Below, in pieces: positions 15,301 through 40,818 of a stretch of DNA of 64,000 nt. Positions within the stretch are counted from its first letter, which is position 1; each line of letters opens with the position of its first letter. The stretch is taken from assembly GCA_022841915.1 (NCBI GenBank), contig JALHQN010000002.1:1-64000 (forward strand), written 5' to 3'. The DNA comes from Burkholderiales bacterium. GTDB lineage: Bacteria > Pseudomonadota > Gammaproteobacteria > Burkholderiales > WYBJ01. A model generated the notes under the pieces. The model saw nothing but the letters and a program-made list of their open reading frames with translations. It was not told the DNA's origin and made no database searches. Position numbers and translations under genes: made by a program.

Positions 15301-15518
15301 GCTTCGATCCGGTGGGCCACCTCGTCGAGCACGACCTCCGGCATGCCGGGGTTCAGCCGATACATCGCCTCGCGCAGCCGCCGGCCAAGCACCACCTGGC
15401 GGTAGTCGGCGCGTTCGGGCGTGTCGCCGTCCGGGGCGAGATCCGGCCCGTGCCTGTATTCCCAGCCGGTGTCCTGGAACCAGATGAGTGCGAGCTGTTC
15501 GAGCTGGTCTTCAGTCAC
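12333..15518 (-). CDS. hsdR: type I restriction enzyme, endonuclease/translocase subunit
   Basis: This 1061-residue HsdR cuts DNA after ATP-driven translocation when the HsdMS complex finds unmethylated sites. The nuclease core has D140 followed by E154-L-K156 (RPDLVCF, then GVIELKN). The helicase part has Walker A TQGSGKS (316-322), DEAH at 423-426, [10 protein letters not shown] and the motif VI region [14 protein letters not shown]. The GTG start at 15518 overlaps the TGA of the preceding AlbA_2/ATPase gene by 4 bases, indicating translational coupling. All key motifs are intact, so the enzyme should be active. Confidence 0.95.
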
Positions 15519-17038
15519 CCGGCACCCCCTCGATCAGGGCCTGCGTGTTTATCGATCCACTGACGGCCCCAGGCGGTGAGCCGGTAACGCTGCCTGCTGC
15601 TGCGCGGCTTGTCGGGTTGCGTCATCTCGACCAAGCCGAGGTCGATTGCCGGCAGCAGGTACGCTTTGCGAAAGTGCTCGCTGTCCTTGAGCCCCAACGC
15701 CTCCTGCAATGCTTGCCGACCCAACTCGTTCGGTAGGGCGAACATCAGCCGCCCGACTTCCGGGGTGACTTCCGGGGTAACTTCCGGGGTAACTTCCGGG
15801 GTGCTTGTCGGACGCTGGGAAAGCCCCTTCCGGGGCGCGTCCAGCCCTTCAGCCACCGTCGGCCCCACCGACGTCCTGAACGTCACCGTCACCACGCCGC
15901 CCATCTCCGAATACTCGGGCGGTGCGATTCCGTATCGGCGACACGCCTCGATCACCCGGTTCGTGCCGCGGCCCCAGACCTCCACCGCGCCGGTGCGATG
16001 GAAAGCGCCGGCGATAAGCGGGTTGCGCAAAATCGACGAATGCTCCTGCGACAGCATGGCTGCGCTGATGCCGGTCGGAAAATCGCCCACGCTCCGCACT
16101 TCGATACGGTCGTCGAACACGGCGATGGCCACATACGAAGCCGCGCGACTGTAGTCGCGGTGAATCACTGCATTGACGATCGTTTCGCGCAAAGCCTCCG
16201 CCGGCACCGGCTGCCGATCCTCGCGAAAGATGCTGCCCTTCGGGAAATGCGCCGCCAGAGGCAAGGTACGATCCAGCCACGCGATGGCCTCGCGCACCAT
16301 CGCAAACGCATGCATGTGCTCCTGCTTGTTGTCGAGGATGTCGCCGATGATCGTCGTGCCGCGGAAGCGCCCAAGCTTGAGCAACCCCTGTGGGTAGTAG
16401 GGCAGGAAGCGCGTGCCGTATAGGATTTGCGCTGCCTGGGTGATCTGCCCGTCGATGCGCAGGCCCAGCCGATCGAGGATGTCGCCGACGTGCATCGGCG
16501 TGCCCGCCGAGAGCCTGCGCTGCGCAATCGCCGTTTCGCGCGTGCGCAAGATCTCTTCATGGTCGAGATCTTCCAGACGCACGTTCACGGCGGGCTGGTT
16601 CTCCCAGCGATGCAGGCTGTGGCTGCGATCCAGCAGCGCACGCTCGTACGCCTGCTGCGGCATCACCGAGGTCGTCGAGCCAACCCGACGATACGGCTTG
16701 CCCTCGAACACGAAAGGCGCCGACTGCCGCGCCGCCGGCGCATCGAGGACGAGCACTTCGCGCCCGTTACCCAGCGCCACGCGGTCCATCTCTACCGGAG
16801 CCGCAGGCTCGAACCTTGTCAGCATGGCGGCAATGTCGCGCAACGTGCTGTCCGAGACTTGTTGCCCGACGAGCTTGCCGTCCGGTCCGACGCCGATCAA
16901 CACCCGCCCGCCGTTGCCGTTTAGGAAGGCGCAAAGGGTTTCGCCAGTGCGGCGCAGCTCGGCGGTGGAGCGCTTGAATTCGAGGGTGTCGGATTCGCCG
17001 GTGCTGGCCCAGGTGGCGATTTGGTCGGGGGTCGTCAT
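15515..17038 (-). CDS. AlbA_2-domain ATP-binding protein (RecG-like transcriptional regulator type)
   Basis: This is a 507-residue protein. The N-terminal AlbA_2/Schlafen-like domain runs to about residue 120 (ESDTLEFKRS, FLNGNGGRVLIGV, PYRRVGSTTSVM). A GHKL-like ATPase region follows (LRETIVNAVIHRDYS, then RIEVRSVGDFPTGI, WGRGTNRVIEAC). A TPEV repeat linker leads to a C-terminal winged helix. Such proteins are often called RecG-like but have no helicase motor. The ATG at 17038 is 2 bases after the hsdS stop, and its own stop overlaps hsdR, so it is embedded in the restriction operon. It may regulate or assist the system; this is inferred. Confidence 0.88.
   Translation of the reverse strand: MTTPDQIATWASTGESDTLEFKRSTAELRRTGETLCAFLNGNGGRVLIGVGPDGKLVGQQVSDSTLRDIAAMLTRFEPAAPVEMDRVALGNGREVLVLDAPAARQSAPFVFEGKPYRRVGSTTSVMPQQAYERALLDRSHSLHRWENQPAVNVRLEDLDHEEILRTRETAIAQRRLSAGTPMHVGDILDRLGLRIDGQITQAAQILYGTRFLPYYPQGLLKLGRFRGTTIIGDILDNKQEHMHAFAMVREAIAWLDRTLPLAAHFPKGSIFREDRQPVPAEALRETIVNAVIHRDYSRAASYVAIAVFDDRIEVRSVGDFPTGISAAMLSQEHSSILRNPLIAGAFHRTGAVEVWGRGTNRVIEACRRYGIAPPEYSEMGGVVTVTFRTSVGPTVAEGLDAPRKGLSQRPTSTPEVTPEVTPEVTPEVGRLMFALPNELGRQALQEALGLKDSEHFRKAYLLPAIDLGLVEMTQPDKPRSSRQRYRLTAWGRQWIDKHAGPDRGGAG
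15756..15803 (-). repeat. 12-bp tandem repeat (4 units) encoding a TPEV linker
   Basis: Four consecutive copies of a 12-bp unit (ACTTCCGGGGTA/G on the plus strand) encode repeated Thr-Pro-Glu-Val between the ATPase region and the C-terminal winged helix. Unit gain or loss keeps the frame and would only change linker length. Confidence 0.9.
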
Positions 17039-17040
17039 GA

Positions 17041-18396
17041 CTAACGGCACGCAACTGCTTCGAGCGGGACGCGGAGTTCGCCCGAGAGGAGCCTAGGTAG
17101 CAACAGGTCTCGAATCCGAGCAAGATTGTCGGATTGCGCACTCGAACTTACGGACCATCTTCTGAGTACACCAACGTAGAGTTCAAAACTGCGAAGTAGT
17201 ATGTCAGATGGCAACAAGAGTGGCACGGCACCAAGAATCGCGGTATTCAGATTTGGCATCGTTGCACCCACTGCATGCTGCACGAGCCATCGTCTCGTAG
17301 TAGGTAGGTCTAGGGCTTCTGACAAATAAGCCTGCGAGGGCCAACTCTCACCGAGTCGAACCAGCAAGCACCCGGTTCCGCAAAGCCACCCATGCTCTCG
17401 GTCGCTGATCAACGCGTGACGCTCGACATCTCCTCGCCGACTATAAACAACATCTCCGGGTTCAAGGACGTGACGCGCCAATCGCGAAGCTGTCTCCGCA
17501 GTGACGCGCGCAACTCGTGCAACGGAAACGCGACGGTTCGAAATGTCCTGCGGCATGACGACCGGCACACCTTCAGGAACATAGTCCGCGGCATGCAATT
17601 GACTTCCGAATGGACCCGTTTGAATTACACCACCGCAGCGCTTCGCCTCAGCAGCGAGCGTGCTGTAAGTCCACCCCTCCGGGATCTCACCGAGTTCGGA
17701 GTCGACGAGGCGGTCGGGAAAGAGGGCGAGCAGTTCGGGAGTGAGACCGAGGCGGCGGCAGATGGATTCGGGCGGCTCGCCGCTTACCTTGGCGCGGACG
17801 GGCTCGAAGTCGACAAACCAGGACTGGAAGATCGTACGCGCGATTCCCTCCAGCGTTTCGTTCATGCGGCGGTTCAGTTCGATCTTGTCGTCGAGGGTGC
17901 CGAGGATGTGGGCGATGCGCTTGCGTTCCCCTTTATCGGGCAGAAGGATCGGCAGTTGCGCCACATCCTTCAGATTGAGCGTGGCCTGTACGGTAGTGTT
18001 CAAACGCCCATAAATCATCTCGCGCGCTTCAGGTGCGTTAAGCGCGAGCTTCACCCAATATGCGCCGACACATTCTCGGACAGGCACAACTGCGACAGCT
18101 CTGGCAACATTCCAACCTTTCATCTCAGTAGGTACTACTGCCGCTTCACCGACCGTACCGACAAGCGTTAGGAGCAATTCACCACCGTTCAATCGAGTTC
18201 GCGCATACGTTGCTTCGATCTCCGACGCAACTTTCAAAGGCCGATCGGTCGCAATTCGACCGCCGCGGATGTCAGCGACTCGAACGATGGGCACACCGTC
18301 GGCCAGATGAGCGCCAGGCTGAACTATGCCGTATGAGATCCCGCGCCCCTCAGCAAGAAGCGAGGAGAGCGGCTGAGACTTCCACTCACCCCCCAT
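17041..18396 (-). CDS. hsdS: type I restriction enzyme, DNA specificity subunit
   Basis: This 451-residue HsdS chooses the bipartite recognition sequence for both modification and cutting. It has two target-recognition halves separated by a conserved helix (GTLDDKIELNRRMNETLEG) and closed by a second one near the C-terminus (RIRDLLLPRLLSGELRVP). The ATG at 18396 overlaps the hsdM stop by 11 bases and gives a natural start (MGGEWKSQPLSSLL). Both recognition halves look full-length, and no inverted hsdS copies for phase variation are visible in the window. Confidence 0.92.
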   Translation of the reverse strand: MGGEWKSQPLSSLLAEGRGISYGIVQPGAHLADGVPIVRVADIRGGRIATDRPLKVASEIEATYARTRLNGGELLLTLVGTVGEAAVVPTEMKGWNVARAVAVVPVRECVGAYWVKLALNAPEAREMIYGRLNTTVQATLNLKDVAQLPILLPDKGERKRIAHILGTLDDKIELNRRMNETLEGIARTIFQSWFVDFEPVRAKVSGEPPESICRRLGLTPELLALFPDRLVDSELGEIPEGWTYSTLAAEAKRCGGVIQTGPFGSQLHAADYVPEGVPVVMPQDISNRRVSVARVARVTAETASRLARHVLEPGDVVYSRRGDVERHALISDREHGWLCGTGCLLVRLGESWPSQAYLSEALDLPTTRRWLVQHAVGATMPNLNTAILGAVPLLLPSDILLRSFELYVGVLRRWSVSSSAQSDNLARIRDLLLPRLLSGELRVPLEAVACR

Positions 18397-20020
18397 ATCC
18401 CAACCTCGCCAAATTCTCCCGAATCGCCCTCTCCAGCCGCGCACTCTCCCCGAACTGCTCGGTAAGCTGCTGCGTCAACCGCCCCATCTTCTCCTCGAAC
18501 AGCTCCCCGTCCGCTACCTGTGCCGCCGCGCCCACATACCGCCCCGGCGTCAGCACGTAGTCGTGCTTTCGGATCTCGTCCAGCTTCGCCGCCTTGCAGT
18601 AGCCCGCCTCGTCCGCATAGCCCTCGCCCTGCTTCCACGCATGGAAGGTGCCGGCGATCTTCGCGATGTCGTCGCTGCTGAAGTCGCGCAGCACGCGGTC
18701 TTTCATGTAGCCCAGGTTGCGTGCGTCGATGAAGAGTGTTTCACCCGCGCGGTCGCGAAAGCCGTTGCGCGCCGCCTTGCTGCGGGCGAGCACCCAGATG
18801 CACGCGGGGATCTGCGTGTTGGTGAAGAGCTGGCCGGGCAGCGCCACCATGCACTCGACGAGATCGGCCTCGACGATGGCCTTACGGATCTCGCCCTCGT
18901 TGTTGGTGTTGCTGCTCATCGAGCCGTTGGCGAGCAGCAGCGCCATGCTGCCCTGGGGGGCGAGGTGGTGGATCATGTGCTGCATCCACGCGAAGTTGGC
19001 GTTGTTCGCCGGCGGGATGCCGTACTTCCAGCGCGGGTCGTCGTCCTTCACGCCGGCGTTCCACTCCTTCATATTGAAGGGCGGGTTGGCCATGATGAAG
19101 TCGGCGCGCAGATCCGGGTGCTGGTCGCGGGTGTAGGTGCTGGCGGGCTCCTTGCCGAAGTCGTAGTCCATGCCGCGGATGGCCATGTTCATCGAGGCGA
19201 GCCGCCAGGTGGTCGGGTTCGATTCCTGACCGTAGATCGAAAGCTGCCCCACGCGCCCGCCGTGCTCCTCGACGAACTTCTCGGACTGCACGAAGAAGCC
19301 GCCCGAGCCGCAGCAGGGGTCGTACACGCGGCCTTGGTAGGGCTGCAGCATCTCGACGATGGTGGTGACGATGCTCTTGGGCGTGTAGTACTGCCCGCCC
19401 TTCTTGCCCTCGGCCATGGCGAACTCGCCGAGGAAGTATTCGTAGACGTGACCGAGGATGTCCTTCGCCTTGAGCGTGCCGTGTCGAAAGGGGATTTCGG
19501 CGATGAGGTCGATCAAACCGGGCAGCGCGGTGTCGATCTGCTTGCGGGCGTAGTCCTTGTCGAGCACGCCCTTGAGCTTGACGTTCTCCTTCTCGACCGC
19601 ATCCAGTGCATCGTCGAGCAGCCGGCCGATGCCCTTGAACTCGTAAGTGCTGGTCTTGCCGTTCTTGACTTCGAGCTTGGCGCCCATCGCGACCTTCGCG
19701 TGCGCCTGGATGAAATCCCACCGCGCCAGAGCCGGCACCCAGAAGACGTTCTTCTCGGTGTAGTAGTCACGCGCTTCGAGCTCCTCCGCGATCATTTCAT
19801 CGGCATCGTCGCCGAGGTAGTAGTCGTGATTCGGGTCGCGAAAGGCCGCCTCCAGTTCGGCGCGACGTTCCTTGAAGGCATCCGACACGTATTTGAGGAA
19901 GATCAGGCCGAGCGCGACGTGCTTGTAGACGGCCGCATCGAGCATCGGCAACAGCTTGTTCGCCGCCGTCCAGAGCTTCTTGTCGAGGTCGTTGAGGAAT
20001 TGTTGTTCTTGCGGGTTCAT
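18386..20020 (-). CDS. hsdM: type I restriction enzyme, adenine methyltransferase subunit
   Basis: This 544-residue HsdM methylates adenine at the sites chosen by HsdS, protecting host DNA. The N-terminal helical domain (FLNDLDKKLWTAANKLLP) is followed by the S-adenosylmethionine loop DPCCGSG (234-240) and the catalytic NPPF (312-315). It is the first gene of a five-gene coupled operon with hsdS, the AlbA_2/ATPase gene, hsdR and the zinc-ribbon gene. The promoter should lie in the 335 bp up to the divergent nuclease gene at 20356. The start codon has only a weak ribosome site. Confidence 0.95.
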   Translation of the reverse strand: MNPQEQQFLNDLDKKLWTAANKLLPMLDAAVYKHVALGLIFLKYVSDAFKERRAELEAAFRDPNHDYYLGDDADEMIAEELEARDYYTEKNVFWVPALARWDFIQAHAKVAMGAKLEVKNGKTSTYEFKGIGRLLDDALDAVEKENVKLKGVLDKDYARKQIDTALPGLIDLIAEIPFRHGTLKAKDILGHVYEYFLGEFAMAEGKKGGQYYTPKSIVTTIVEMLQPYQGRVYDPCCGSGGFFVQSEKFVEEHGGRVGQLSIYGQESNPTTWRLASMNMAIRGMDYDFGKEPASTYTRDQHPDLRADFIMANPPFNMKEWNAGVKDDDPRWKYGIPPANNANFAWMQHMIHHLAPQGSMALLLANGSMSSNTNNEGEIRKAIVEADLVECMVALPGQLFTNTQIPACIWVLARSKAARNGFRDRAGETLFIDARNLGYMKDRVLRDFSSDDIAKIAGTFHAWKQGEGYADEAGYCKAAKLDEIRKHDYVLTPGRYVGAAAQVADGELFEEKMGRLTQQLTEQFGESARLERAIRENLARLGYGG

Positions 20021-27900: not shown

Positions 27901-30354
27901 CTATAGACCGATTGCATTCGAGCTGCGGGACTGGCGCGTGCGCCTCGCCAGCCCGACAGCGAAGAGGCCGGCAAGCATGAGCATCCACTCATGTGGCTCA
28001 GGAACCGCGGTGACCTGGAATGCGCCCCCGGCGAAGCTGGTCGCAAGGGGTGCGCCGCCGCTGAAGCCATCGAATACGATGTTGTCGAAACTCCCCGTAT
28101 GGCTCGCGAAGGTCAGTATGTTCAGCGCGTCGCCCACAGCGGGCACATAGCTGCCGCTGCGAAGGATGCGCAACGTGCCGTCCAAGTGCAGAGCGCCGCC
28201 GACCGCGATGACGTCATACTGCCCCGTGCCCGTGCCGGCGATCTCGATCATCAGCACGCTGCTATCGGTCAGCGTCAGATCGCCGCTGATGGCCAATGTG
28301 CCGGGCGAGAGGCCTGGGATGATCGTACCATCGCTGACGATGCTGCCGTCGATGCTGCCATTGCCCGTCAGCGTTCCCGTCATCCCGAGGTGAACCGACG
28401 CCGCCTTCACCACCCCGCCGTCGGCGACGTTGAGCAATCCGTTGCCGCCGGGGTTGTTATCGTAATCCCGACCCACCCCCAGGAATGCGCCCATATCCAA
28501 CCTCGAACCGGCGCCGATGACGTGCAGCGTTCCGCTGCTGCCGGCAGTGAAACCGACCGAGCCGGTGCCACTGCTTGGGAAACTGACCTGGGCACCGTCC
28601 GAGATGGTCATCGTGCCGGTGCTGGGCGTCACCCCGCCCGTGATGTCGCGCCCGATGCTCAGCGATGTAGTCGCGCCGGTGACGTTGTAGCGTGTCGCGG
28701 CGCCGGTGATGATGAGCGTGCCTGTGCCGCCGGCCTGCGTCCCGGTACCGCCGACGCTGGTCACATGCCGCTGCGCGCCGAGCGTACCGTCCACGTTGAT
28801 GACCGCGCCGCCACTGATATTCGCTACCCCGATGCCGCCCCGCCCCACAGACAAACCCGCGCCGAATTCATCCGCCGCCAGGCTCTTGATGTTGATCGTG
28901 GTACCGGGACCAGCGACGTTGAGCGTAGCGCTGCTACCTGGCGCATGGCCGACGGTGAGCCGGTGCCCGGGAGCGACGACGGCGCCGTCATCGATCGTGA
29001 GCGTTCCGCTGCTGCCGGCACTTCGCCCCAAACGAAGCGACATGTCGATGCCGGAAATCGTAACGGCGGTGCCTGCGCCTGAGATCAATCCGGAGAACGA
29101 ACCGCCAGTGGACGTGGCGGCGCCTCCGAAATTGAGTGCACCGCCTGCGGTTCCGACATTCGTGATGACCAACTGACCACCGCTCTTCACGTAGAGTGTG
29201 CCTGCACCCAGGCGGGCGACCGTCATGCCGAACCCTTGGCCATTCGAATCGCTGAGCAATTCGAGCTTGCCGCTGCTTTCGATGGTGAGCGTCCCCGTCG
29301 AAAGCGCATCGCGCCCGACGGTGAGCCCTCCCGCGGCAGCGGTCGCGCCACGGGCATCGACTGTCATCTGTGCCCCATTGCGGATCGTCAATGTGCCGAC
29401 GCCATCATTGCGACCGACACTCACGCTCGCGCCGTCACCTATATCGGTACAGCAAGTGGCTACGCCGCCGATGTCGAGCGCGGAACCCACGCCGTCGACG
29501 ATCACCGTACCGGTCGCACCCAAACCCACCTCCGTGACGCCTGCAGCATTCTCGCGCCCGCGGCCGATTCTCAAAAACGTACCACCGCTCACGCTGCCCC
29601 CGCTGTTGATCATCAGTCCACCGGTCGTTCCTGCGCCCATACGACCGACGTTCAACACTGTGTTTTCGCCGAGGAACTCGATCTTTGAACCAACGCCCGA
29701 CACGAGCACGGTACCGTTTCCCGGGAGGACTGGGCCCGAGGTGAAATTGGCACTGCCCACTGTCATTTGCGCGCCGCTTTCGACCCCAATGCCCGAGCCG
29801 GCATCGCCGATCTTCACGCGGCCGCCATTGATGACATTAAGTTCCCCGGTTGACCGGTAACCGACAAGCAACTGCGGCGTAAGGTCTGAGCGGTTGACCA
29901 GCAGCGTACCGCCATCGACGTTGACAGTGCCATGGCTGCCGGGGAACTGCGCGATGATGGAGGAGGTTATTCCATTGCCCAGCGCCGACACGGTCCCACC
30001 GGAAAGGATATCCAGCACGCCCGCGCCGGATCTGCCGACCCCCAAGCCTCGATCGGCCGTCGCCAGAGAGCCCGCGCCGCTTACGGTCAGCGTGCCCTCA
30101 CCCGAGGCCGTCTCCCCGAGGTAGAAATTGCGGCCGGCGAAGGTTGCGCCGCCGATGATCGACATCGTACCGACGCCGACGTTACCGACTAACAGGTTGG
30201 TAGCCGTACCGATATTCGTGCTGCCCGGACCGATGCCCGCGGGCGAGACGTCGCCGGTCACACTGATCGTTTGCGCCAAGGCACCCGCGCCACTGAGCGC
30301 GATTCCCACTGCGATTGCGATGGCCGAGATATGCCGGATGCCGTTCGATTGCAT
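27901..30354 (-). CDS. large repetitive exported protein with a PEP-CTERM anchor
   Basis: This 817-residue protein is secreted by a Sec-type signal (IAIAVGIALSGAGALAQ) at the ATG at 30354, behind an AGGAGG site. The body is many degenerate repeats of about 40-60 residues with the recurring pattern VGRxGxGTLxIxxGG, typical of beta-helical autotransporter-like passengers. There is no outer-membrane beta-barrel. The C-terminus has the PEP-CTERM signal: AVPEPHEW, a hydrophobic helix (MLMLAGLFAVGLA) and Arg-rich tail RRTRQSR. Exosortase should process it for surface display or matrix. No exosortase gene is in the window. Confidence 0.88.
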   Translation of the reverse strand: MQSNGIRHISAIAIAVGIALSGAGALAQTISVTGDVSPAGIGPGSTNIGTATNLLVGNVGVGTMSIIGGATFAGRNFYLGETASGEGTLTVSGAGSLATADRGLGVGRSGAGVLDILSGGTVSALGNGITSSIIAQFPGSHGTVNVDGGTLLVNRSDLTPQLLVGYRSTGELNVINGGRVKIGDAGSGIGVESGAQMTVGSANFTSGPVLPGNGTVLVSGVGSKIEFLGENTVLNVGRMGAGTTGGLMINSGGSVSGGTFLRIGRGRENAAGVTEVGLGATGTVIVDGVGSALDIGGVATCCTDIGDGASVSVGRNDGVGTLTIRNGAQMTVDARGATAAAGGLTVGRDALSTGTLTIESSGKLELLSDSNGQGFGMTVARLGAGTLYVKSGGQLVITNVGTAGGALNFGGAATSTGGSFSGLISGAGTAVTISGIDMSLRLGRSAGSSGTLTIDDGAVVAPGHRLTVGHAPGSSATLNVAGPGTTINIKSLAADEFGAGLSVGRGGIGVANISGGAVINVDGTLGAQRHVTSVGGTGTQAGGTGTLIITGAATRYNVTGATTSLSIGRDITGGVTPSTGTMTISDGAQVSFPSSGTGSVGFTAGSSGTLHVIGAGSRLDMGAFLGVGRDYDNNPGGNGLLNVADGGVVKAASVHLGMTGTLTGNGSIDGSIVSDGTIIPGLSPGTLAISGDLTLTDSSVLMIEIAGTGTGQYDVIAVGGALHLDGTLRILRSGSYVPAVGDALNILTFASHTGSFDNIVFDGFSGGAPLATSFAGGAFQVTAVPEPHEWMLMLAGLFAVGLARRTRQSRSSNAIGL

Positions 30355-30635
30355 GACCCACCTCCTGGGATTATGACGTGTGACCATCGCCGATACCGCT
30401 GCCCGACAATCTGCTTTCTACGCCTTATGTTGGCGGCAATCAACACGAGAACGCATCCACCAAACGGATGACATAATCTTTGCGGCAGGTCCGCTGGCCT
30501 TCGGCGTCGCAACTTCTGATCGGATTGGAGGGTGTTTGGCACCGCAGCATTTCGAGGCACGGGTTCGTGCAATCAGTGGAGTCGGTCGATCCGTTCACCA
30601 GAATGAACCGATCTTCGTGTCACTGCGCTCGCGCA

Positions 30636-31033
30636 TCAGCCCGATCGATGCCTTCGCCGGTCCGGCTGGTAAATCAACCGATATGCCGCGGGGATCACGA
30701 ACAAAGAGGGCAGCGGTGCACTGAGCATGCCGCCGATTATCGGAGCCGCAATGCGCTGCATGACCTCGCTGCCTGCACCGCGCCCCAGAACAGCGGCAGC
30801 AGCCCGGCGACGATCGTGGCTACGGTCATCGCTTTCGGCCGCACCCGCAGCACCGCACCTTCTCGAATCGCCGCCAGCAGATCGTCCTCGCCGTCGCGCC
30901 CAGCCGCCACGCGCGCGGCCCAGGCCTGCTTCTGGTAGTCCAGCATGATCACGCCGAACTCCGCCGCGACGCCGGCCAATGCGAGCGGCAGCGTGGCCAT
31001 GACCAGCAACGATCTTCGGGAACCGGTGGCCAC
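30636..31033 (-). pseudogene. heavy-metal RND efflux pump (CusA/CzcA type), C-terminal remnant
   Basis: From about 31033 downward the minus strand encodes [15 protein letters not shown], then [16 protein letters not shown] and [10 protein letters not shown]. These are conserved segments near the end of CusA/CzcA-type transporters. The frame then shifts by one base near 30788 and continues as [13 protein letters not shown] and [11 protein letters not shown] to the end. Upstream there is only a fused stub ([16 protein letters not shown]), so most of the 1000-residue pump is deleted. It is a non-functional relic with an internal deletion and a frameshift. Confidence 0.85.
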
Positions 31034-31099
31034 CGGCCCGCATGCACTGATCGCGGCAGTCGCGCCAATTGAGTCAACCGCTCGTCACGCGCGGTTGCT

Positions 31100-32695
31100 T
31101 CACTCGTTCACAGGCGCGGCGGAGCCGCTGAACTCGGGGCCGCTCAGCGCCCCGGATACTTGCGCGGGATTGCCGAGTCCGGCGAACTGCGCTGATCCGA
31201 ACAGCCCGAACTGCGAACCCACGCCGGCACGCTTGCGCCATGCATCGAGCAGGCGACCGACACCGGAAGCCTCAGCGCCGGATCCGCTCGCGATCACGCA
31301 GCGAGTCGGCTCGGCCCCTGGCGTCTCGGCACAATCGAACTCCAGGCAGACCGAAGCCGATTCTTCCCCTTCGGCAAACTCCACCGGCCCAAGCCGCAGA
31401 CTCTTGTGCTCGCTCGACGCCACCCGCACCAAGGTACGATCGGCCGCGAGCGCGCGCAGTTCGGCGGCCAGCGGATGGCGGATCCGTCGGTCGATCACGC
31501 TGATCGGCGAGAGCTGACCGGTCAGGATCTGTGCTGCCCAGCCGCCGTCGATCTTCGCCGAGCGCTGCTCTCGGGGATAGATCGGTGCCTCGCCCTGAGT
31601 CCCGCTTGCCTTCACCACCGAGATCAAGAACCGTTCCGGCTCCTCGATGAGTTGCACCCGGTAGCCCGCGCGGCGCAGCATCGCGTCGTCGGTATCGAAG
31701 GTGTGCGCGAGATAGCTCGCGGTACGACGCGGATGCGCTTGGTCCAGCGCACGTTCCAGCGCCTGAAAATCATCTTTGCCATCGACGTCGAAAGCCAGTT
31801 GTGGCCCGTCGCGATCCAGTCCGTTTGCCTGGTCCTTGCGAGCCGCATTCTGGGCGCTCGCGTGCACCGGGGCGTCGGTGATCAGCGTGCTCAGGAGCGC
31901 ATCGAGCGCTTCGGCATAACCGGCTGGGGTCGCCATCGGCGCCACGCCGGTTTGCGAAATCTTCGCCAGATGCGCCCCCACCTCCCGCCACAGGCCCGCG
32001 AACGCTTTGGCGGCCGGATCGCTCGCATCGTAGATTGCAACCGGTGCGCGCCGCACGCTCACTTGCTCGACGCTGCTCGCATACGGGATCTGTTCGCGAA
32101 GAAACAGCTCCGGATGCCGCTCGGCCCACTGCGAGAGGCTGCGATGCAATGCCTTGCGACGGTCCACCATGGAGACGAAGGGCAGCAAGGCGGGCGCATC
32201 GTGGTTGAGGGATTGAGCGAGGCGCAGCAGCGTGCGCATCGACAGGGTGCTTGGAATCGTCGGCACGAGCAGCACATCGGCGCACGCAATGACGGCTTCG
32301 CTCAGCGCGGAGAAGCCGGCAGGACAATCGAGCAAGACCAAGGCATATGCCTCACCGAGCTGCTCCAGCATTCGCTGCATCACGCGCTGCGGATGCTCGA
32401 GCTGATCCAGGAAACGATCCAGGTTGCGATACGAGAAATCCGCCGGTAGCAAATCGAGGTTGCGGTGATCGGTCTCGCGGATCGCCTCGATGAACACTTG
32501 GGCATCCCGCAACGCCGGCTTGCCGAACTGGGCCACCTCGGGCTTGACCCGCAGGGCGAACGTCGAGGCGGCTTGCGCGTCGAGATCCCACAGCAAGGTC
32601 TTCTGTCCGCTCGCCGCTGAAAGATAGGCCAGATTGACAGCGCACGTCGTCTTGCCGACGCCGCCTTTCATGTTGTACACCGCGACGATCGTCAT
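31100..32695 (-). CDS. ParA/MinD-like ATPase fused to a CYTH-like domain
   Basis: This is a 531-residue protein. Residues 1-245 are a ParA-type ATPase with a deviant Walker A YNMKGGVGKTT (10-16 core), WDLDAQAAS and VLLDCPAG (D123). After a linker (250-300), residues about 300-480 follow the CYTH pattern: a DVDGKDDFQALERAL strand-helix, HTFDTDDAMLRRAGYRVQL, and a charged beta segment (FLISVVKAS). CYTH domains bind polyphosphate-like triphosphates in a tunnel. No ParB or centromere gene is near. The ATG at 32695 overlaps the stop of the CHAD gene by 4 bases. The pair may position polyphosphate granules; the sequence shows the fusion, while the role is inferred. Confidence 0.78.
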   Translation of the reverse strand: MTIVAVYNMKGGVGKTTCAVNLAYLSAASGQKTLLWDLDAQAASTFALRVKPEVAQFGKPALRDAQVFIEAIRETDHRNLDLLPADFSYRNLDRFLDQLEHPQRVMQRMLEQLGEAYALVLLDCPAGFSALSEAVIACADVLLVPTIPSTLSMRTLLRLAQSLNHDAPALLPFVSMVDRRKALHRSLSQWAERHPELFLREQIPYASSVEQVSVRRAPVAIYDASDPAAKAFAGLWREVGAHLAKISQTGVAPMATPAGYAEALDALLSTLITDAPVHASAQNAARKDQANGLDRDGPQLAFDVDGKDDFQALERALDQAHPRRTASYLAHTFDTDDAMLRRAGYRVQLIEEPERFLISVVKASGTQGEAPIYPREQRSAKIDGGWAAQILTGQLSPISVIDRRIRHPLAAELRALAADRTLVRVASSEHKSLRLGPVEFAEGEESASVCLEFDCAETPGAEPTRCVIASGSGAEASGVGRLLDAWRKRAGVGSQFGLFGSAQFAGLGNPAQVSGALSGPEFSGSAAPVNE

Positions 32696-34260
32696 TGCAC
32701 CAGCTCGGTTAGATGTTCCATGTGAAAGACTCGCTCGAACGCAACGCGCGTCGCAGCCTCGCCGAAGAGCAGCAACTGCTGGTTCGCGGGCTTGCGCAGC
32801 GCCTGGGCGCGGCGATCGGCCAGACCGGCGAGCGCTTCGGCCGCGTGCCGCATCGAAGTCGCATCGCGCCCCGTTTCGTTTAGCGTCGTTGCGTAGCGAC
32901 GAAGCCAGCTTGCCTGCACGCAAGCATCGTTGAATTCGCCCAATACCGCCTGCAGCCGTCCCAAGGCACGCTGAATGGTCGCTACATCCTCGGCGTCATG
33001 CAGGTTGGCGGTCGTGTCGATCAGGTACCGCAGTTGTCTGGCATCGACGCGGATCCGATGCAGTTCGTGTGCCGGGGTATCGTCGCGCACGTGCTCGGTG
33101 CCGGAAAGCGTGCGGCGGTAAAGCGACCACCCGCTCTGGGAGACGACCGTCATGAGGGGCAATGCATCGCACCCCACGCCGGGCCGCATGCACGGCTCCT
33201 CGGAGAGGAATGCCGCCCATCGGTCTGCCCACTGACGGTAGCGCTCGCTCGTCAGTGGCTCGACGAGCGCCTGTTGGGCTCGGGCGCGCTCCTGCTCGAG
33301 CTGCGCAAGGATCAGGCGTCGTTGATCCTCGTTCAGAGCCTTCGACGGCGAGCGCAGCCCGTGCAGCAACACGTCGAGATCGCGCGCAGGCCCGGTGATC
33401 CGCCCAAGCCACGCGAACTCCGTCTTGAAGCGATCGACCTCAGCCTGGGGTAGCCCACCTTGGACTTGCTCGAGAAGCGTGTGGCAGCGCCGCACAGCGA
33501 CCCGAAAAGCATGCAGGCACTCGCTGTCGAGACCGGCCAGGACGCCCGGATGGTTGGCGACGATGATGCGAAAGAGCTCTCGGTGCATCCGCAGCAAACC
33601 GATGTCGGCACGCACCGCGGGCTCGAGCTCGACGCGATAGGCCGACATGTCTTGCGGCAAGCTTGCACCGATCGTGCGCAACACATGGCCTTGCAGCGCG
33701 AGCTCGCTACGCCCGATCCCCGGACGGCTCTCGATGATCGCGATCGGCCCCGCGCATTGCTCGTCATAGCCGCGCAAGGCGTTTAGCGTGAGAAGAGGCT
33801 GCAACGACTGCCATGAAGATCGTCGCTTGGGCAACCGTGCTCGCCCGGCAACGATGTCGAGGCGGGCGATGACCTTGCGTGCCTCGTCCAACACATCGAG
33901 CTGCACACCGTCTTGCTCGGCTTCGGCGAGCGGCAACAAAGGGCGCGCTCCGATGATCGGTTCGATGCGCTGTCGCACGGACCCCGGCGGAAGATCCCAT
34001 GCAAACTGCACCGCGCCGCTGACCGCGCACCCGACGCGCATCCCGCCTTGTCGCCACTGAATCCGGCGCCCGCCGGCATCCGCGGTCAGCGTCAGGCATG
34101 CGCCCGCACGGCCAACGCGGCCATCCGAAGTATCGAGGAATGTTATGCGCCGGCGCGCAAGCAGCCTCCGGCGCACCGTCAGCAGTGCTGCAAGGCTCTC
34201 GACAATGCGTTCGACCGGCCAGTCTAGGCGCGCTGCGTACCGGGCTTCCAAGGCCAACAA
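32692..34260 (-). CDS. CYTH-CHAD protein (polyphosphate-associated)
   Basis: This is a 522-residue protein. The first 200 residues resemble a degenerate CYTH domain (ALEARYAARLDWP, FLDTSDGRVGRAGACLTL). Residues about 220-515 are a CHAD domain, an all-helical fold with two repeats built around conserved His/Arg: H250 with R253, R257 and R258 (LHAFRVAVRRCHTLLEQ), and ELHRIRVDARQLRYL in the second half. CHAD proteins bind polyphosphate and can localise to polyphosphate granules. Translation probably starts at TTG (34260 or 34257) behind GGAG; no good ATG exists upstream. The stop overlaps the ParA-CYTH start (ATGA). Confidence 0.82.
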   Translation of the reverse strand: MLALEARYAARLDWPVERIVESLAALLTVRRRLLARRRITFLDTSDGRVGRAGACLTLTADAGGRRIQWRQGGMRVGCAVSGAVQFAWDLPPGSVRQRIEPIIGARPLLPLAEAEQDGVQLDVLDEARKVIARLDIVAGRARLPKRRSSWQSLQPLLTLNALRGYDEQCAGPIAIIESRPGIGRSELALQGHVLRTIGASLPQDMSAYRVELEPAVRADIGLLRMHRELFRIIVANHPGVLAGLDSECLHAFRVAVRRCHTLLEQVQGGLPQAEVDRFKTEFAWLGRITGPARDLDVLLHGLRSPSKALNEDQRRLILAQLEQERARAQQALVEPLTSERYRQWADRWAAFLSEEPCMRPGVGCDALPLMTVVSQSGWSLYRRTLSGTEHVRDDTPAHELHRIRVDARQLRYLIDTTANLHDAEDVATIQRALGRLQAVLGEFNDACVQASWLRRYATTLNETGRDATSMRHAAEALAGLADRRAQALRKPANQQLLLFGEAATRVAFERVFHMEHLTELVQ

Positions 34261-34597
34261 CGTGCTCCAGCAGTTTGCGTGGTCCCGTGTGTCACCGAGC
34301 TTGCATCAGCGGGAACTTCCACCGGACAAGTCGAATGTGTGCACAGCGAAGCAGGAACCTAGCTCAAGCGATGGCGCAATTCAAGCGTTGCGCAAGATTC
34401 CATCAACATCCGGGCCCGTATCGCAGGCGGGGCGTGGAAGAGCGAGCACCTGCTCGGCTTGCCGCTTCACCCCGATCGTCCGGAAAATCTCTGTTCCACG
34501 ATGCTACTTACATAGGCTACACTTTTGTCGTGACAGCCATCGAACGGCGATGCCCGACATCGTCCGCGAGCGCGTCATCACAAGGAGGAGGAACGGC
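34261..34597. other. divergent promoter region between the CHAD gene and a Bug receptor gene
   Basis: This is 337 bp without a gene. It must hold promoters for both directions. I see no certain -35/-10 pair. The ribosome site AAGGAGGAG of the receptor gene ends the region. Confidence 0.5.
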
Positions 34598-35566
34598 ATG
34601 AAGGCACTATTGCGCCTTGCGGCGCCCGTCGTCTATGCGCTGTGCGCTTGCGGCACAGCTTACGCCCAGCCGTACCCCACCAAGCCTGTGCGCGTCATCG
34701 TCCCGTTTCCGCCCGGTGGGGCCAACGATATTGCTGCGCGCATCGTCTTCCCCAAGTTGTCCGAGCTGATGGGGCAGACTTTCATCCTCGAGAATCGCTC
34801 CGGCGCAGGCGGCACGATCGGGTCCTCGGCCGTCGCGCAATCGAAGCCCGACGGATACACGCTGCTCATCCAGACGGTCGCGTCCCACGTGGCCAACGCG
34901 CATCTCTACAGCAAGCTGCCCTACGACCCGTTGCGCGACTTCGTCGGCGTCAGTCCGATGGGACAAGTCGCAGCCGTGCTGACGGTGCACCCATCCATGC
35001 CGACGAGGTCGGTGAAGGAGTTCATCGACCTCGCCAAGAAGCGGCCGAACGACATTCTGAACGGACACTCGGGCATCGGCAGCTTCACCCACCTGAACGG
35101 AGTGCTGTTCCAATCCCGCGCGGGCATTCAGATGACGCAGGTTCCGTTCAAGGGAGGCGGACCGGCCGTCATCGCCCTGGTCGGGGGGCAGACCCAAGCC
35201 CAGGTAGCTGCGATCAGCGAGCTGATTTCCTTCATCAAGGCGAATCGCGTGCGCGGGCTGGGCGTGACCACTTCCGCGCGCGTCCCGCAGTTGCCCGACG
35301 TGCCCGCTATATCGGATACGATTCCGGGCTATGAGTCCGTGACGTGGGTCAGCGTCTTCGCGCCCGCGGGGACACCCAAGCAGGTCCTCGATCGACTCAA
35401 CGTCGAGATCGCGAAGGTCTTGAAGGATCCGGGGACCATCGAACGATTGGCAGCCCAGACGCTGGATCCTGCCATCCGATCCGCAGACGACCTGGACAAG
35501 CGAGTCCGTGCTGACTACGACACGATCGGCACACTCTATCGAAAGATCGGCGTGAAGCTCGACTAG
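34598..35566 (+). CDS. tripartite tricarboxylate transporter receptor (Bug/TctC family)
   Basis: This is a 322-residue periplasmic binding protein starting at ATG 34598 behind AAGGAGGAG. The signal peptide (LLRLAAPVVYALCACGTAYA) precedes the Bug-family start YPTKPVRVIVPFPPGGAND. Family landmarks follow: ENRSGAGGTIG, PDGYTLL, VPFKGGGPAVIAL, LPDVPAI, and a Lys/Asp-rich end. It should capture a small carboxylate or aromatic acid. No TctA/TctB transport genes are near, so it is an orphan receptor. The ligand cannot be read from sequence. Confidence 0.92.
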   Translation: MKALLRLAAPVVYALCACGTAYAQPYPTKPVRVIVPFPPGGANDIAARIVFPKLSELMGQTFILENRSGAGGTIGSSAVAQSKPDGYTLLIQTVASHVANAHLYSKLPYDPLRDFVGVSPMGQVAAVLTVHPSMPTRSVKEFIDLAKKRPNDILNGHSGIGSFTHLNGVLFQSRAGIQMTQVPFKGGGPAVIALVGGQTQAQVAAISELISFIKANRVRGLGVTTSARVPQLPDVPAISDTIPGYESVTWVSVFAPAGTPKQVLDRLNVEIAKVLKDPGTIERLAAQTLDPAIRSADDLDKRVRADYDTIGTLYRKIGVKLD

Positions 35567-35884
35567 TCATCCTCCGGCAGCGGCTGCAGGCTTACTTACT
35601 GCGAGCCGCTCAAGAGGGCTCTTCGAGGTCTTCGGCGAGATCTCATCTTGCCGCGCCATCTGCAAGTGGTTAACGCCAAAGCCGGAATCGATCCTGGCGA
35701 GCATCCCCCGCCGACGGGTATCGGACGCACGCCCTTTGCGCGCTCTACCCGCCCCTTGTGCCAGGCGCGATTCGGGCTTGGAGGAGCAACGGGCAGTGGT
35801 GTTCCATGGCCTGTACGTTTCATCGAGAGCGATCCTCCGCTCCACGACGTCGTCTAGCTTAGGATCTCCGCCCGAACTACCGAA
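35567..35884. other. intergenic, no gene seen
   Basis: These 318 bp separate convergent genes. No coding frame with family features and no clear intrinsic terminator was seen. Confidence 0.5.
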
Positions 35885-36793
35885 CTACTTTACCGCCCGC
35901 CGCTGTGCCCGCGACCAGTTGAGATCGTTTTCGCCCCCGCCCTGCCCGACGAGATCTTCGGACAGCGCATCCCGCAACTCCCGATCCTGCATCGCGACCG
36001 TATGCTCCAAGAACGCGTTGGCGCGCGACAGTTTCTGGTTGACCTGATCGACGTTCTCCAGGCGCTGTGCAAGCTGGCGGTCCTTGAGCTGAAGCGTCCG
36101 AGCGGCACGGCGCACGATCAAGAAGAGAAAACCGTACAGGACGGCCAGACTCACGACCACGGTGATGGAAGTGCGCCACCGCTCGTCCTCGATCCGACCA
36201 ACCAGCTCGGTCACATCACTGTAGATTTCCAGGACAGCCACCGGCTCTCCGGCAGCGGCCTCCCGGACAGGAATATATGGTGAGAGGAGATTGCGATTGG
36301 CGATCTCGCCGTTGAATGCCGAGAAGCGCTTGCGGAAAGTAAGCTCGCTGGCCGGCTTGCCGGCGCGTGCCTGACGAAAGCCTGCGTTGTCGCGCTTCGA
36401 CTCGCCGATTTGCGCCGGATCCGAGGAGAACACGGTCAGGCCGTCCAGGTTGTAGAGCTTCACCTTGACCACGTTCGTGCCGCGCACGAGCGACTGCACG
36501 TCGGCTCGCAGACTCGCAACCTCGGGCCGTCGCCGGAGTTGATCGGTCGGCAGGGCAGAAGCATCCGTCACGAAGGCCGCGTGCTTGGCCCACAGCGTAT
36601 TAGCGAACACTCGCGCCAATGTCATGCTCGCGCGGGTCTCGTGTTCGATCATGCGATCGACCGCCGCCCGATGCATGACGAACGTCAGAATCGCGACGAC
36701 GACGACGACGCCGATCAGGCTCACCAGCGAGTAGAAGCGCAAAAGCCGAAAATTCGCACGGCTGGCGCCGATCCATCCGAGAAACCAATTCAC
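35885..36793 (-). CDS. membrane sensor protein without an output domain
   Basis: This is a 302-residue protein from GTG 36793 behind AGGGTGGAAG. A membrane helix (YSLVSLIGVVVVVAILTFV) leads to a periplasmic sensor-like segment (VKVKLYNLDGLTVFSSDPAQIG) and a second helix (TSITVVVSLAVLYGFLFLIV). A coiled-coil follows (LQLKDRQLAQRLENVDQVNQKL), and then the protein ends. In many bacteria the same input module is joined to GGDEF, kinase or cyclase domains; here no output exists. It follows the hybrid kinase gene by 51 bp, so it may present a signal to that kinase. Truncation of a longer ancestor is also possible. Confidence 0.75.
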   Translation of the reverse strand: MNWFLGWIGASRANFRLLRFYSLVSLIGVVVVVAILTFVMHRAAVDRMIEHETRASMTLARVFANTLWAKHAAFVTDASALPTDQLRRRPEVASLRADVQSLVRGTNVVKVKLYNLDGLTVFSSDPAQIGESKRDNAGFRQARAGKPASELTFRKRFSAFNGEIANRNLLSPYIPVREAAAGEPVAVLEIYSDVTELVGRIEDERWRTSITVVVSLAVLYGFLFLIVRRAARTLQLKDRQLAQRLENVDQVNQKLSRANAFLEHTVAMQDRELRDALSEDLVGQGGGENDLNWSRAQRRAVK

Positions 36794-36844
36794 CTTCCAC
36801 CCTTCACGAGAGATGGCGTCGCCACGGGCGCGAGACCAGATGGA

Positions 36845-39220
36845 TCACACATTGCTATCGGCATCTTCACGGACGTCCACACGTCTTGCTGGAACAGCCT
36901 CCGCCTCCGTCGACTCTCGATCCGACGAATTGGGCGGCGAGCCGCTTGCAGCGACGAGCGCTGCCCGCACAATGGCCTCGAGCTGCGCAGGGGTGAACGG
37001 CTTGGCCAAATAATCGTCCATGCCCACTTCGGTACAGCGCTCGCGATCGCCGCGCAGCGCATTGGCCGTTACTGCAATCACGGGCAAACGCCGCAGCCCG
37101 AGTTCGCGCTCCCGCTTCCGCAGCGCGATGGTCGCCTCGTAGCCGTCCATCTCCGGCATCTGGCAGTCCATGAGTACCAGGTCGAAGGACTGTTCATTCA
37201 GCGCGTCGAGGGCTTCGCGGCCGTTCTCCGCCACCTGTACCCTGCATTCGAACGATTCGAGAATTGCCCGCGTGATCTCCTGGTTCACGGGATTGTCCTC
37301 GGCCAGCAGGACGCGCGCGCCGATGCCCGTCGACGTGGTGGACGACACCTTGCTCGCAACGACCCGTGCGCTGGAAAGACTGCGATAGAGATCAGAGGCC
37401 CGTACCGGTTTGATCAAGTGCTCATCCCACAAACGCTCTGGATCGGCAACAGCATGCTGAGCGATCGGCGACATGCGTACGAGGCGAATCCCCGAGAATC
37501 GGGCATCGGCGCGCACGGCGCGCGCCATCGACTCGCCGTCCAGGCCCGGCATCGCGGAATCGATCACCGCGACCTGGAAGCGATTCCCCGAGGTGACGCC
37601 GACCGAGAGCACGTCCAGCGCCCGCTCGACGTCCTGCGCGCTTTCAACCTGCGCGCCGAGGGTCGTGGCAAGCCTGGATACGATGCGACGCGAAGTCTCG
37701 TTGTCCTCGACGATCAGCACGCGCGGATGATCAGACAACTGCGGACGAACGTCGCCGGAAGCGGGCGCGGGCAACATAGGCAATTCGAACGAGAACCGGG
37801 AGCCGCGCCCGAGCTCACTCTCCACGCGGAGCGTACCTCCCATGAGGCTGACCAGATCCCGGGATATGGATAGTCCCAGCCCGGTTCCCCCGAACTTGCG
37901 GGTGGTTGAGGTGTCCGCCTGCGAAAAGGCCGTGAAAAGACGCTGCTGAACTTCGGCCGAGATTCCTATCCCGGTATCCGTTACCGTGAAGCCCAGGCAG
38001 TTGCCCGAGGAACCGCTTCGACAGGGGCGAACGCTCACCACAACCTCGCCTGCCGTCGTGAACTTGACCGCATTCCCCAGAAGGTTCGTCAACACCTGCC
38101 GCAACCGCCCGGAATCACCGCAGTAGTGGCTCGGCAATCCAGGCTCGAGATCGCACGCGAGCTCCAGGCCTTTCTCCTGCGCACTGCCCGCAAAAGCCTC
38201 CATCAGGTCATCGACGAGCTCGCGCAGATCGAATTCGGTGCGTTCGGCCTCCATGCGGCCGGCGCGAAGCTTCGAGTAATCGAGGATGTCGTCGATGAGG
38301 TGAAGCAGGTTCTCGCCCGAGCGCTGAAGGATGGTCGCGAATCGTCTTTGCTTCGAATCGAGCGGCGTATCGAGCAGCAAACCCGCCATGCCTATCACGC
38401 CGTTGAGGGGAGTGCGGATCTCGTGGCTCATATTGGCGAGGAACACCGACTTCGACCGCCCCTCTGTTTCCGCAGCTTTGCGCGCCGCCTCCAACGCCTC
38501 CCGATCACGCGCCATCCTGCGGGAGAGCTGGAACCCATAAGCAGTCACGGCGACAACCATCAGGACGATCAGCACGGCGGAGAAGTATTCCCAGCGCCGC
38601 AGGGACCTCGCACGATCAGCGTGGGCGGCAAGAAGCGCTTGCTGTATGTCACCGACCCGCCACATCAAGGCATTCACCGAGTCGTTCACCCCGTAGAAGC
38701 GCTCATCCATCTGCGCCATGCGCTCTGCGGCGAGGTCGTTGCGTCCGGAGCGCATATAGCGAAAGATCTCTCGAGCCTCGACGACCATGCCCGCCATTGC
38801 CTGCTCGAGCGCGTCAAGCTCGCCCCGAAAGACATCCCTGTGCACCGCAGGGATGTTGTGCTTCATGTCCTCGCGAGCGCCCCCCACGCGCTGGGTGAAT
38901 TTGTGCAGGGCCTCCTCAAGTGCAGCGGATTCCTTTTCCACGTTCTTGCTTTCGAAAACGCGGTTGCCGGGCGCGTTGACTTGGGATGCCAGGTTCGACA
39001 CTTCGAGATACCCGGAGATACGCTGAGTCCACTGCCGACTCTCGTCCACCGAGGAGGTGTAAATCGTCATGATCGAGTGCGTGATGAGCGCACTCAAGCA
39101 CAAAGCGAGGACGCTGAAGGCGGCAAGGCCGAAATAGACGACTTGCGGGCGCGATCCGGACTTCGCACTGGGGTCATCGGAGCTCGATTCGGTCGTGGTT
39201 GCCTCGACGGGATGCATCAT
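36845..39220 (-). CDS. hybrid sensor histidine kinase with two receiver domains
   Basis: This is a 791-residue kinase. Two membrane helices ([20 protein letters not shown] and [19 protein letters not shown]) flank a helical periplasmic sensor of about 150 residues. The dimerisation helix has the phosphorylated His in [16 protein letters not shown]. The ATPase part has the N, G1 and G2 boxes ([25 protein letters not shown]). Two receivers follow: the first with [13 protein letters not shown], the second with [12 protein letters not shown] and K in YLAKPF. No HPt domain is attached, so a separate HPt protein must complete the relay. ATG 39220 is the likely start; GTG 39226 is possible. Confidence 0.93.
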
Positions 39221-39226
39221 TGTCAC

Positions 39227-39831
39227 GTGAATGCGCGGCTGCTACTGCGACAGCGGCAGCTTGGAAGATGATTGGGAACCGAACCATGCCGAGGGCATGA
39301 GAAGGACTTAGCGACCGGGTCGCGCGCAACTTGAGAACGAACACAGACGCTTCGTCGACTCGAGCAACGATGGGCAATGATGCCACGAACGAATCCGTCC
39401 GCCCTGTCCGGCTTCGCCAGTCGATCGACCTTGCAACCGAATGCAATTCGGCGGGCACGCGGAAGTTCAGCCTGTCCTCACACACCCGGACCCATTCCGA
39501 CACCGACGGTCCGAGCGCTCCGATGCCTCCATCGCTCTGGCGCGATGGAGGCTCATGGCACAGGGGTGGCAGAAATGGATCGAACCCTTGCTCCCGAAAA
39601 AGGGGGCGGATCGTATCGAGCGCCCAGGCCGTGCGCACGCATTTGCCTTCATGGCACAGGCCGTGCTTACTCGGGTGCCGACAGTCGGGCGCGGGTGACG
39701 TTTCCCCGGCGCGCGAGGATGGACTGCCCCGCTCGATGCGCAATCGTGGTGCGCACGGCGGGCGCTCCGCACCGCGGCAGTTAGCGGCAGGCCTTCGGGC
39801 GTCGACCACGACATAAAGTTGGCAAGGACAG
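39227..39831. other. 605-bp intergenic region between divergent genes
   Basis: This lies upstream of both the hybrid kinase and the receptor gene at 39832. I see no gene in it. It contains a strong hairpin at 39525-39552, described separately, and the ribosome site AAGGACAG just before 39832. The remainder may be remnant DNA. Confidence 0.5.
39525..39552. other. perfect 10-bp inverted repeat with 8-nt loop
   Basis: GCCTCCATCG (39525-39534) pairs with CGATGGAGGC (39543-39552). No T-run follows on either strand, so it is not a standard intrinsic terminator. It could be a protein-binding palindrome or the relic of an insertion sequence end. Confidence 0.5.
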
Positions 39832-40818
39832 ATGAGACCGCTGTGCATGATGCCGTCGATGTTGGTGGCTGCCGGACTGGGCCTGGCAGGTTCGGGATAT
39901 GCCACGGCCGCCGACTACCCCCGCAAGCCGATCCGCTTCCTGATGCCGCATCCGGTCGGTGCCGGCATGGATTTCGTCTCGCGCACGGTGGCGAACAAGC
40001 TCACCGAGGCCTGGGGTCAGCAGGTCGTCATCGACAGTCGTCCCGGTGCCGGCGGCGTGATCGGTCTCACCCTCGCGAAGAAGGCCGCACCGGATGGCTA
40101 CACGCTGGTGCCGACCTCCATCGGCCCGCTCACGGTCAACCCGAGCCTCTACCGCAACCGCAACCTGCCCTACAACACCCTGCAGGATTTCGCGCCGGTG
40201 ACCTCCCTAATCTCCGCGCTGAACATCTTGGTGGTGAATCCGGCCGTGCCCGCGAAGTCCGTGAAGGAACTCGTCGCACTGGCGAAGTCCCGGCCGGGCA
40301 GGCTCAAGTACGCCTCGAGCGCCAACGGCAATACCGATCACCTCGCGGGCGAACTATTCAAGAAGCTCGCCGGCATCGACATGGTGCACATCCCCTACAA
40401 GGGGGGCGGGCCGGCGGCGATCGCCATCGTCAACGGTGAGGTGGACGCGATTTTCGCGGTCTATCAGAACATCGAACCGCTGCTGCAGGCGGGGCGGCTG
40501 CGGGTGCTCGCCGTCGCTGTCGGACAGCGATGGCCTACGCTCCCGGACGTACCAACGGTGGCCGAGATGGGCGTGCCGGGATTCGAAGTCGTCAACTGGT
40601 ACGGCATGGTTGCCCCCGCCGGAACCCGGAAGGCCGTGATCGACAAAGTAAACACCGAGGTCGTGCGCATCATGAGGATGCCCGACGTGGTCGCTTCGCT
40701 GGCGAAGAACGGGATGGTGCCGTTCACCAGTTCACCCGAGGCGTTCGGTGCCTTCATGAAGTCCGAGATCGCCAAGTGGGCGAAAGTGATCGCGGACGCC
40801 AATATTCAGATCGACTGA
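39832..40818 (+). CDS. tripartite tricarboxylate transporter receptor (Bug/TctC family)
   Basis: This is a 328-residue periplasmic receptor. The signal peptide ends near GSGYATAADYP, followed by RKPIRFLMPHPVGAGMD, where His replaces the more common Phe of PFxPGG. Other landmarks are DSRPGAGGVIG, PDGYTL, HIPYKGGGPAAIAI and LPDVPTV. It is the first gene of a run (39832-45356) with asparaginase-like, amidohydrolase, second receptor and SDR genes, all on the plus strand. Its ligand is therefore probably a nitrogen-containing or ring compound that those enzymes degrade. Confidence 0.92.
   Translation: MRPLCMMPSMLVAAGLGLAGSGYATAADYPRKPIRFLMPHPVGAGMDFVSRTVANKLTEAWGQQVVIDSRPGAGGVIGLTLAKKAAPDGYTLVPTSIGPLTVNPSLYRNRNLPYNTLQDFAPVTSLISALNILVVNPAVPAKSVKELVALAKSRPGRLKYASSANGNTDHLAGELFKKLAGIDMVHIPYKGGGPAAIAIVNGEVDAIFAVYQNIEPLLQAGRLRVLAVAVGQRWPTLPDVPTVAEMGVPGFEVVNWYGMVAPAGTRKAVIDKVNTEVVRIMRMPDVVASLAKNGMVPFTSSPEAFGAFMKSEIAKWAKVIADANIQID

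Follow-up and report, generated by a model that had tools for sequence, protein, structure and literature searches.

ParA/MinD ATPases are known to transport a range of cargo, plasmids, chromosomes and carboxysomes included, with a partner protein that stimulates hydrolysis, and for carboxysomes and DNA this transport takes place on the nucleoid, as set out in sections of PMC10241942 and PMC13052382. The present analysis concerns a candidate system of this kind in the window, i.e., the whole 64,000-nucleotide stretch analysed here, from Burkholderiales bacterium (assembly GCA_022841915.1, contig JALHQN010000002.1, positions 1 to 64,000). Here, a gene for a ParA-family ATPase adjoins a gene for a CHAD protein, and this pair is probably a two-gene positioning system of the ParA/McdA type, with the polyphosphate granule as its cargo.

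Several described systems share parts of this arrangement. McdA-McdB likewise consists of a ParA-fold ATPase and an operon-encoded partner on a non-DNA cargo, and McdA is a strong structural match of the ATPase in the window; however, the partner at the window locus is not McdB but a polyphosphate-binding CHAD protein whose TTM domain is dead. AlgP of Pseudomonas aeruginosa concerns the spacing of polyphosphate granules, but it is described in parts of PMC9239181 as a histone H1-like DNA-binding protein and is no ATPase. In a section of a 2025 review, AlgP is the sole granule-positioning protein in the table, with ATP dependence given as unknown (PMC13052382). The phosins (CtCHAD of Chlorobium tepidum and the CHAD proteins of Ralstonia eutropha, as cited in a section of PMC6537752) have the CHAD domain in common with the window partner, whose polyphosphate-contact residues are identical to those of CtCHAD, whereas CHAD proteins paired with ParA differ in three respects: their N-terminal TTM domain is dead, their C-terminal sequence is distinctive and a parA gene lies next to theirs. 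Lastly, Acidithiobacillus carries a folD-ppk-parA-CHAD cluster in which, by the papers' description, parA lies beside CHAD or CYTH-CHAD and ppk; however, the relevant sections of these papers treat gene context only, read as cyclic AMP signalling or tested for copper resistance, and the idea of granule positioning is absent from them (PMC10892726, PMC6416229). Neither "CHAD" nor "polyphosphate" occurs in the main text of a ParA/MinD survey (PMC10241942), and no ParA-driven positioning of polyphosphate granules was recognised by title or start of abstract among the open-licence PMC papers listed; a description in a preprint or behind a subscription may exist. The earlier note on this DNA knew of no described system with this architecture; as gene context, the neighbourhood of parA, CHAD and ppk has already been published for Acidithiobacillus. 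What is proposed as new is the polyphosphate granule as ParA cargo.

The features of the locus, in window coordinates, are:

31100 to 32695, minus strand: ParA-family ATPase gene, 531 amino acids (ParA domain, residues 1-245; linker; degenerate CYTH domain; poorly predicted end)
31226 to 31795, minus strand: degenerate CYTH domain in the tail of ParA (residues ~301-490)
31961 to 32695, minus strand: ParA domain, with a KGGVGKTT Walker A including K10 and K15, and with D37, D39 and D123
32692 to 32695, minus strand: ATGA, the 4 bases over which the end of the CHAD gene overlaps the beginning of the ParA gene
32692 to 34260, minus strand: CHAD gene, 522 amino acids, TTG start with GGAG 4 bases upstream of it (degenerate CYTH/TTM domain, residues 1-200; CHAD domain, ~205-455; C-terminal helical segment, 455-522)

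The ATG of ParA starts at 32695 and the TGA of CHAD occupies 32694-32692, as the earlier note had read this overlap, and the shared ATGA suggests that translation of CHAD and ParA is coupled. The GC content of the pair is about that of its surroundings. Among the eight proteins scanned from 27901 to 39905, no carboxysome shell-protein model and no ParB model was found, in line with the note's statement that no ParB gene lies nearby; parS sites were not searched for. A scan of six neighbouring proteins turned up no polyphosphate enzyme.

The ATPase keeps its motor motifs, in agreement with the note's 531-residue ParA with an intact deviant Walker A, and Soj is the closest match to its fold. Pfam AAA_31 matches residues 1-164 at 1.1e-29, and the structural model shows the ParA/Soj fold, aligning with Soj (2bek_A) over 233 residues at a root-mean-square deviation (rmsd) of 1.8 (VIA Z 30.4). 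K10, K15, D39 and D123, whose roles we take to include those of the deviant Walker A signature lysine and the Walker B aspartate, are invariant in the 37 rows of the ParA alignment, and KGGxGKT is kept in 110 of 111 CHAD-linked ParAs. McdA stands high in the structural list (VIA Z 26.1), and BcsQ and FleN are also among the matches (Z 24 to 25). The latter two bear on the chief rival explanation, a regulatory role of ParA in polyphosphate metabolism, in which the ATPase would be a switch like FleN or BcsQ that binds CHAD and tunes polyphosphate synthesis, breakdown or CHAD loading with the ATP level. A fused CYTH domain would fit a sensor of this kind, and PPK1, PPK2, CYTH and phosphatase genes do flank ParA-CHAD pairs: the 106 flanking open reading frames (ORFs), which were called mechanically and are in some cases spurious, include 7 PPK1, 3 PPK2, 7 histidine phosphatase, 3 CYTH and 6 peptidase M1 genes. 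On the other hand, PPK1 or PPK2 thus account for 10 of these 106, and Soj and McdA (Z 26 to 30) outscore BcsQ and FleN, albeit by a modest gap. A regulatory switch is considered unlikely.

The partner protein carries a CHAD domain (Pfam PF05235, residues 227-454, 3.9e-43), and in its AlphaFold model (predicted local distance difference test score, pLDDT, 89.8) the CHAD part matches the CtCHAD-polyphosphate complex 6qva over 306 residues (Z 31.9, rmsd 2.5) as well as 6qv7 (Z 32.2). According to a section of PMC6537752, mutation of H253, R256 and R260 of CtCHAD lowers the affinity for polyphosphate 6-8-fold, and mutation of R296 and R418/Y419 in addition lowers it 80-150-fold. In the alignment these residues correspond to H250, R253, R257, R293, R411 and Y412 of the window protein; all six are kept there and do not vary across the 29 rows of the CHAD alignment, window included. 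The N-terminal domain has the TTM fold (VIA Z 16.4 to the CYTH/TTM protein 2gfg_A, 173 residues, rmsd 2.8), and its hhalign comparison with CYTH gives 1.5e-4 at probability 51, where the same CYTH profile gives 0.25 against the ParA profile and 0.48 against the CHAD profile. The partner is therefore rightly described as a CYTH-like/CHAD protein. On the strength of such a CYTH fold, it might be a class IV adenylate cyclase or a triphosphatase coupled to polyphosphate, with ParA incidental, as proposed for Acidithiobacillus, where a section of PMC6416229 reports conserved active-site residues in the species of that paper. For the paired proteins this is very improbable. The ExExK motif is absent from the N-domain of the window CHAD and is present in 1/92 paired N-domains (1/68 after thinning to 60% identity), as against 16/18 CYTH-CHAD proteins from the window's order that are not paired with ParA. 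An ordinary CYTH-CHAD gene is also found in the window's genome, adjoining ppk1.

A profile of the C-terminal segment likewise separates paired from unpaired CHADs: all 46 held-out paired proteins score at least 21.9 bits and 20 unpaired ones at most 10.3, with near-copies in both halves, and after 60% thinning 33 of 34 held-out proteins score at least 20.3 and one 7.5, the best unpaired score being 8.8. The structural match to CtCHAD extends over this segment too. The segment is a family mark and not proof of a contact with ParA; the weight given to granule positioning is unchanged, because the weakened argument from this segment was never its basis. One family of the window's order (f34; loci L052, L053, L054, L055, L057) has short CHADs that match the window CHAD to its C-terminal end; these genomes hold no ParA match near the scores of the ParA family, and none beside CHAD by eye.

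The genome survey that had been suggested for the gene pair shows it to recur in several phyla. A ParA gene was called linked if a CHAD gene lies immediately upstream of it in the same orientation. In a scan of 300 genomes of the window's order, six ParA matches stand apart (at least 198 bits; next 80), five of them directly behind a CHAD gene, the exception being G058. In the contig-wide set, the best 80 of 566 confirmed ParA relatives, 67 are linked, and for 41 of these the gap is exactly -4. The class sample comprised 369 genomes of the window's class, 57 of them positive for ParA at E<=1e-40; here, 41 are linked by profile (gap exactly -4 in 19), or 42 including L198, which the profile missed and Pfam recovers at 3e-29. 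The two sets overlap by at least five identical ParAs; thinning all ParAs from both sets and the order loci to 70% identity leaves 65/85 linked, with a gap of -4 in 38/64. The deposited names of linked loci include Gammaproteobacteria, Nitrosomonas, "Deltaproteobacteria", Acidobacteriota, Planctomycetota, Actinobacteria and Schekmanbacteria. ParA and CHAD distances are correlated over 108 pairs (r 0.80, reached in 0/999 permutations), a relation confounded by species ancestry. Moreover, the two genes behave as one unit, since the match listed for genome G002 (87% complete, with the pair on a 7.2 kb contig) spans window positions 31100-34268 at 79% identity and excludes the flanks.

In a phylum sample of 200 genomes, 60 of them ParA-positive, a partner-like CHAD (E<=1e-25) is present in 41/60 ParA-positive and 24/140 ParA-negative genomes (Fisher 4e-12, with no correction for shared ancestry). 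Where the CHAD match reaches model position 500 or beyond, 26/31 genomes are ParA-positive, compared to 15/34 for shorter matches. On a FastTree phylogeny of 178 ParAs (13 of them outgroup), with long branches and near-copies flagged, the adjacency label changes at least 19 times versus 53.6 times when shuffled; linkage has therefore been gained or lost often.

A number of results weigh against granule positioning, as does the missing ancestry correction of the Fisher value. Linkage by coordinates in the phylum sample is limited to 5/60 ParAs (G000, which is the window's genome, G017, G763, G787 and G801) and, outside the window's class, to 3/53; among the 25/60 loci viewed directly (20, and five further loci of at most ~3.7 kb), one is linked, G763. 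No partner-like CHAD was found in 19/60 ParA-positive genomes of this sample, nor a close ParA match in G001 and G003, which belong to the same genus as the window. The window ParA itself has DLDAQA where the majority of the family has DLDPQG. Unlinked ParAs number 15/57 in the class sample and 13/80 among the best 80 relatives. Of these 13, L124 and L148 are cut by a contig end, L107 has a short upstream ORF resembling the partner N-domain by eye, L139 and L150 have a CHAD gene 2.8 kb and 0.9 kb upstream, respectively, and at L152 a CYTH gene lies 13 bases downstream, with a CHAD gene 4.3 kb off; the remaining seven show no CHAD in the stretch retrieved around each. Such relatives, not beside CHAD and found above all outside the window's class, would be expected if ParA moved DNA or other cargo, or had an older job of its own, with CHAD merely an operon-mate and granules not the cargo. 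With the polyphosphate contacts of the partner intact, ppk genes adjoining some pairs and no match to a ParB model in the eight proteins scanned around the window pair, this explanation is judged quite unlikely.

The ParA-CHAD pair is common, and the fusion of ParA to a CYTH domain is rare. No CYTH model of Pfam matches the ParA or the CHAD protein at E<=1, and an NCBIfam scan was also negative; such a negative scan is not the same as the absence of CYTH, as locus L083 illustrates. This locus (JAJDET010000097.1, filed as Planctomycetota, of unsure phylum given its 3.1 kb contig from a metagenome-assembled genome, MAG) encodes a 527-residue ParA-CYTH fusion behind a CHAD gene, and its tail matches Pfam CYTH at 3.3e-21 with an intact EVEFK. 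The window tail matches the L083 tail by BLASTP (50.8 bits, E 5e-12, 32% over 154 residues) and by profile comparison (7e-13), and the CYTH assignment of the window tail rests on L083, since the direct comparison with the CYTH profile is weak (E 0.027, probability 1.8). By this sequence relationship, the ParA tail is a CYTH homologue. The profile check proposed in the earlier note thus fails for both proteins with plain Pfam, while the comparison through L083 and the hhalign value of the CHAD N-domain support its CYTH-like readings. In the tail alignment, EVEFK of L083 stands opposite QLAFD in the window, and both the ExExK motif and the late acidic strand of CYTH are gone in the window and G002; because of these losses the window tail is a degenerate CYTH. 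Model confidence in the tail is mixed (block means 25 to 88), and Foldseek and VIA searches with the whole ParA model, in which the tail was not searched alone, filled the rows displayed with ParA-like and other P-loop chains. The profile match between the tail and the CHAD N-domain is weak (0.0052, probability 7), and a copying of the tail from the partner is not claimed.

A search for the tail in 300 genomes of the window's order found 2. An assembly artefact is rejected, as the same fusion is present in G002 at 80% identity. Outside the genus, no relative is closer to the window ParA than L083, by tree and by BLAST (52%, 253 bits versus 237 for the next), and the L083 CHAD is, narrowly, the nearest to the window CHAD by BLAST (40%, 189 bits versus 184). 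Among the best 80 of 566 relatives and the 57 class-sample genomes, L083 and the window are the only long fusions; the L220 ParA (341 residues) falls into two frames and extends into masked sequence. ParAs of the family are typically about 243-280 residues long. The earlier idea of ParA-CYTH as the moving part is not supported in that form: the fusion is not the general design, with ParA standing alone in nearly all relatives examined, and the CYTH tail of the window is degenerate. In an Acidobacteriota MAG (L152:6001-7246), a free-standing CYTH gene (6e-19) comes 13 bases behind a ParA gene of the same family, an arrangement that is possibly a stage before the fusion.

With the motor motifs intact and a polyphosphate-binding surface on the partner, granule positioning is the simplest reading. 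The association of the two genes is established, and the movement steps and contact surface described next are inferred. ATP-bound ParA dimers would sit on the nucleoid, and the granule would be coated by the CHAD protein via its polyphosphate pore. CHAD would bind ParA, with its C-terminal segment and its dead TTM domain as possible contact sites, and trigger ATP hydrolysis, so that granules would travel up the ParA gradient and be spaced and split between daughters. The fused CYTH/TTM domain, seen in two species of the window's genus and in L083, might act as a second adaptor, in contact with either polyphosphate or the CHAD protein.

Other features lie around the pair and elsewhere in the genome. 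Directly behind the ParA gene (30636-31043, minus strand) there is an apparent decayed C-terminal piece of an RND pump, with a sub-threshold Pfam ACR_tran match (4.6e-5) and a second frame similar by eye; according to a section of PMC6416229, an RND pump adjoins the parA-CHAD cluster of Acidithiobacillus. An 828-residue repetitive protein (27901-30387, minus strand) has a sub-threshold PEP-CTERM match, and most of its sequence is duplicated at G000:C40:18757-20856 with 87% DNA identity. The type I restriction-modification genes HsdR, HsdS and HsdM occupy 12333-20020 (minus strand), with a Schlafen/AlbA_2-HATPase-Fic-like-C protein between HsdR and HsdS. The window's genome has seven ParA-like matches, the window ParA counted among them; two, G000:C17:115187-115675 and G000:C18:110384-110872, have equal score, length and open frame, perhaps from a duplication or an assembly double.

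The spacing and inheritance of polyphosphate granules is an open question according to a section of PMC13052382, and for many ParA ATPases, the "orphans", no partner is known, as stated in parts of PMC10241942; the recurrent ParA-CHAD operon is one candidate for both. Cultured carriers of the pair exist in the genera Methylomonas, Nitrosomonas and Sedimenticola (loci L104, L131 and L134). More tentatively, with a chance that falls a little short of even, granules in several phyla could be an actively positioned, inherited organelle driven by a dedicated ParA with CHAD as its adaptor; the polymer could in some lineages be read by a motor-fused TTM domain, with one protein linking nucleoid, ATP and polyphosphate. 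The pair may be the missing machine that spaces polyphosphate granules or shares them out at division.

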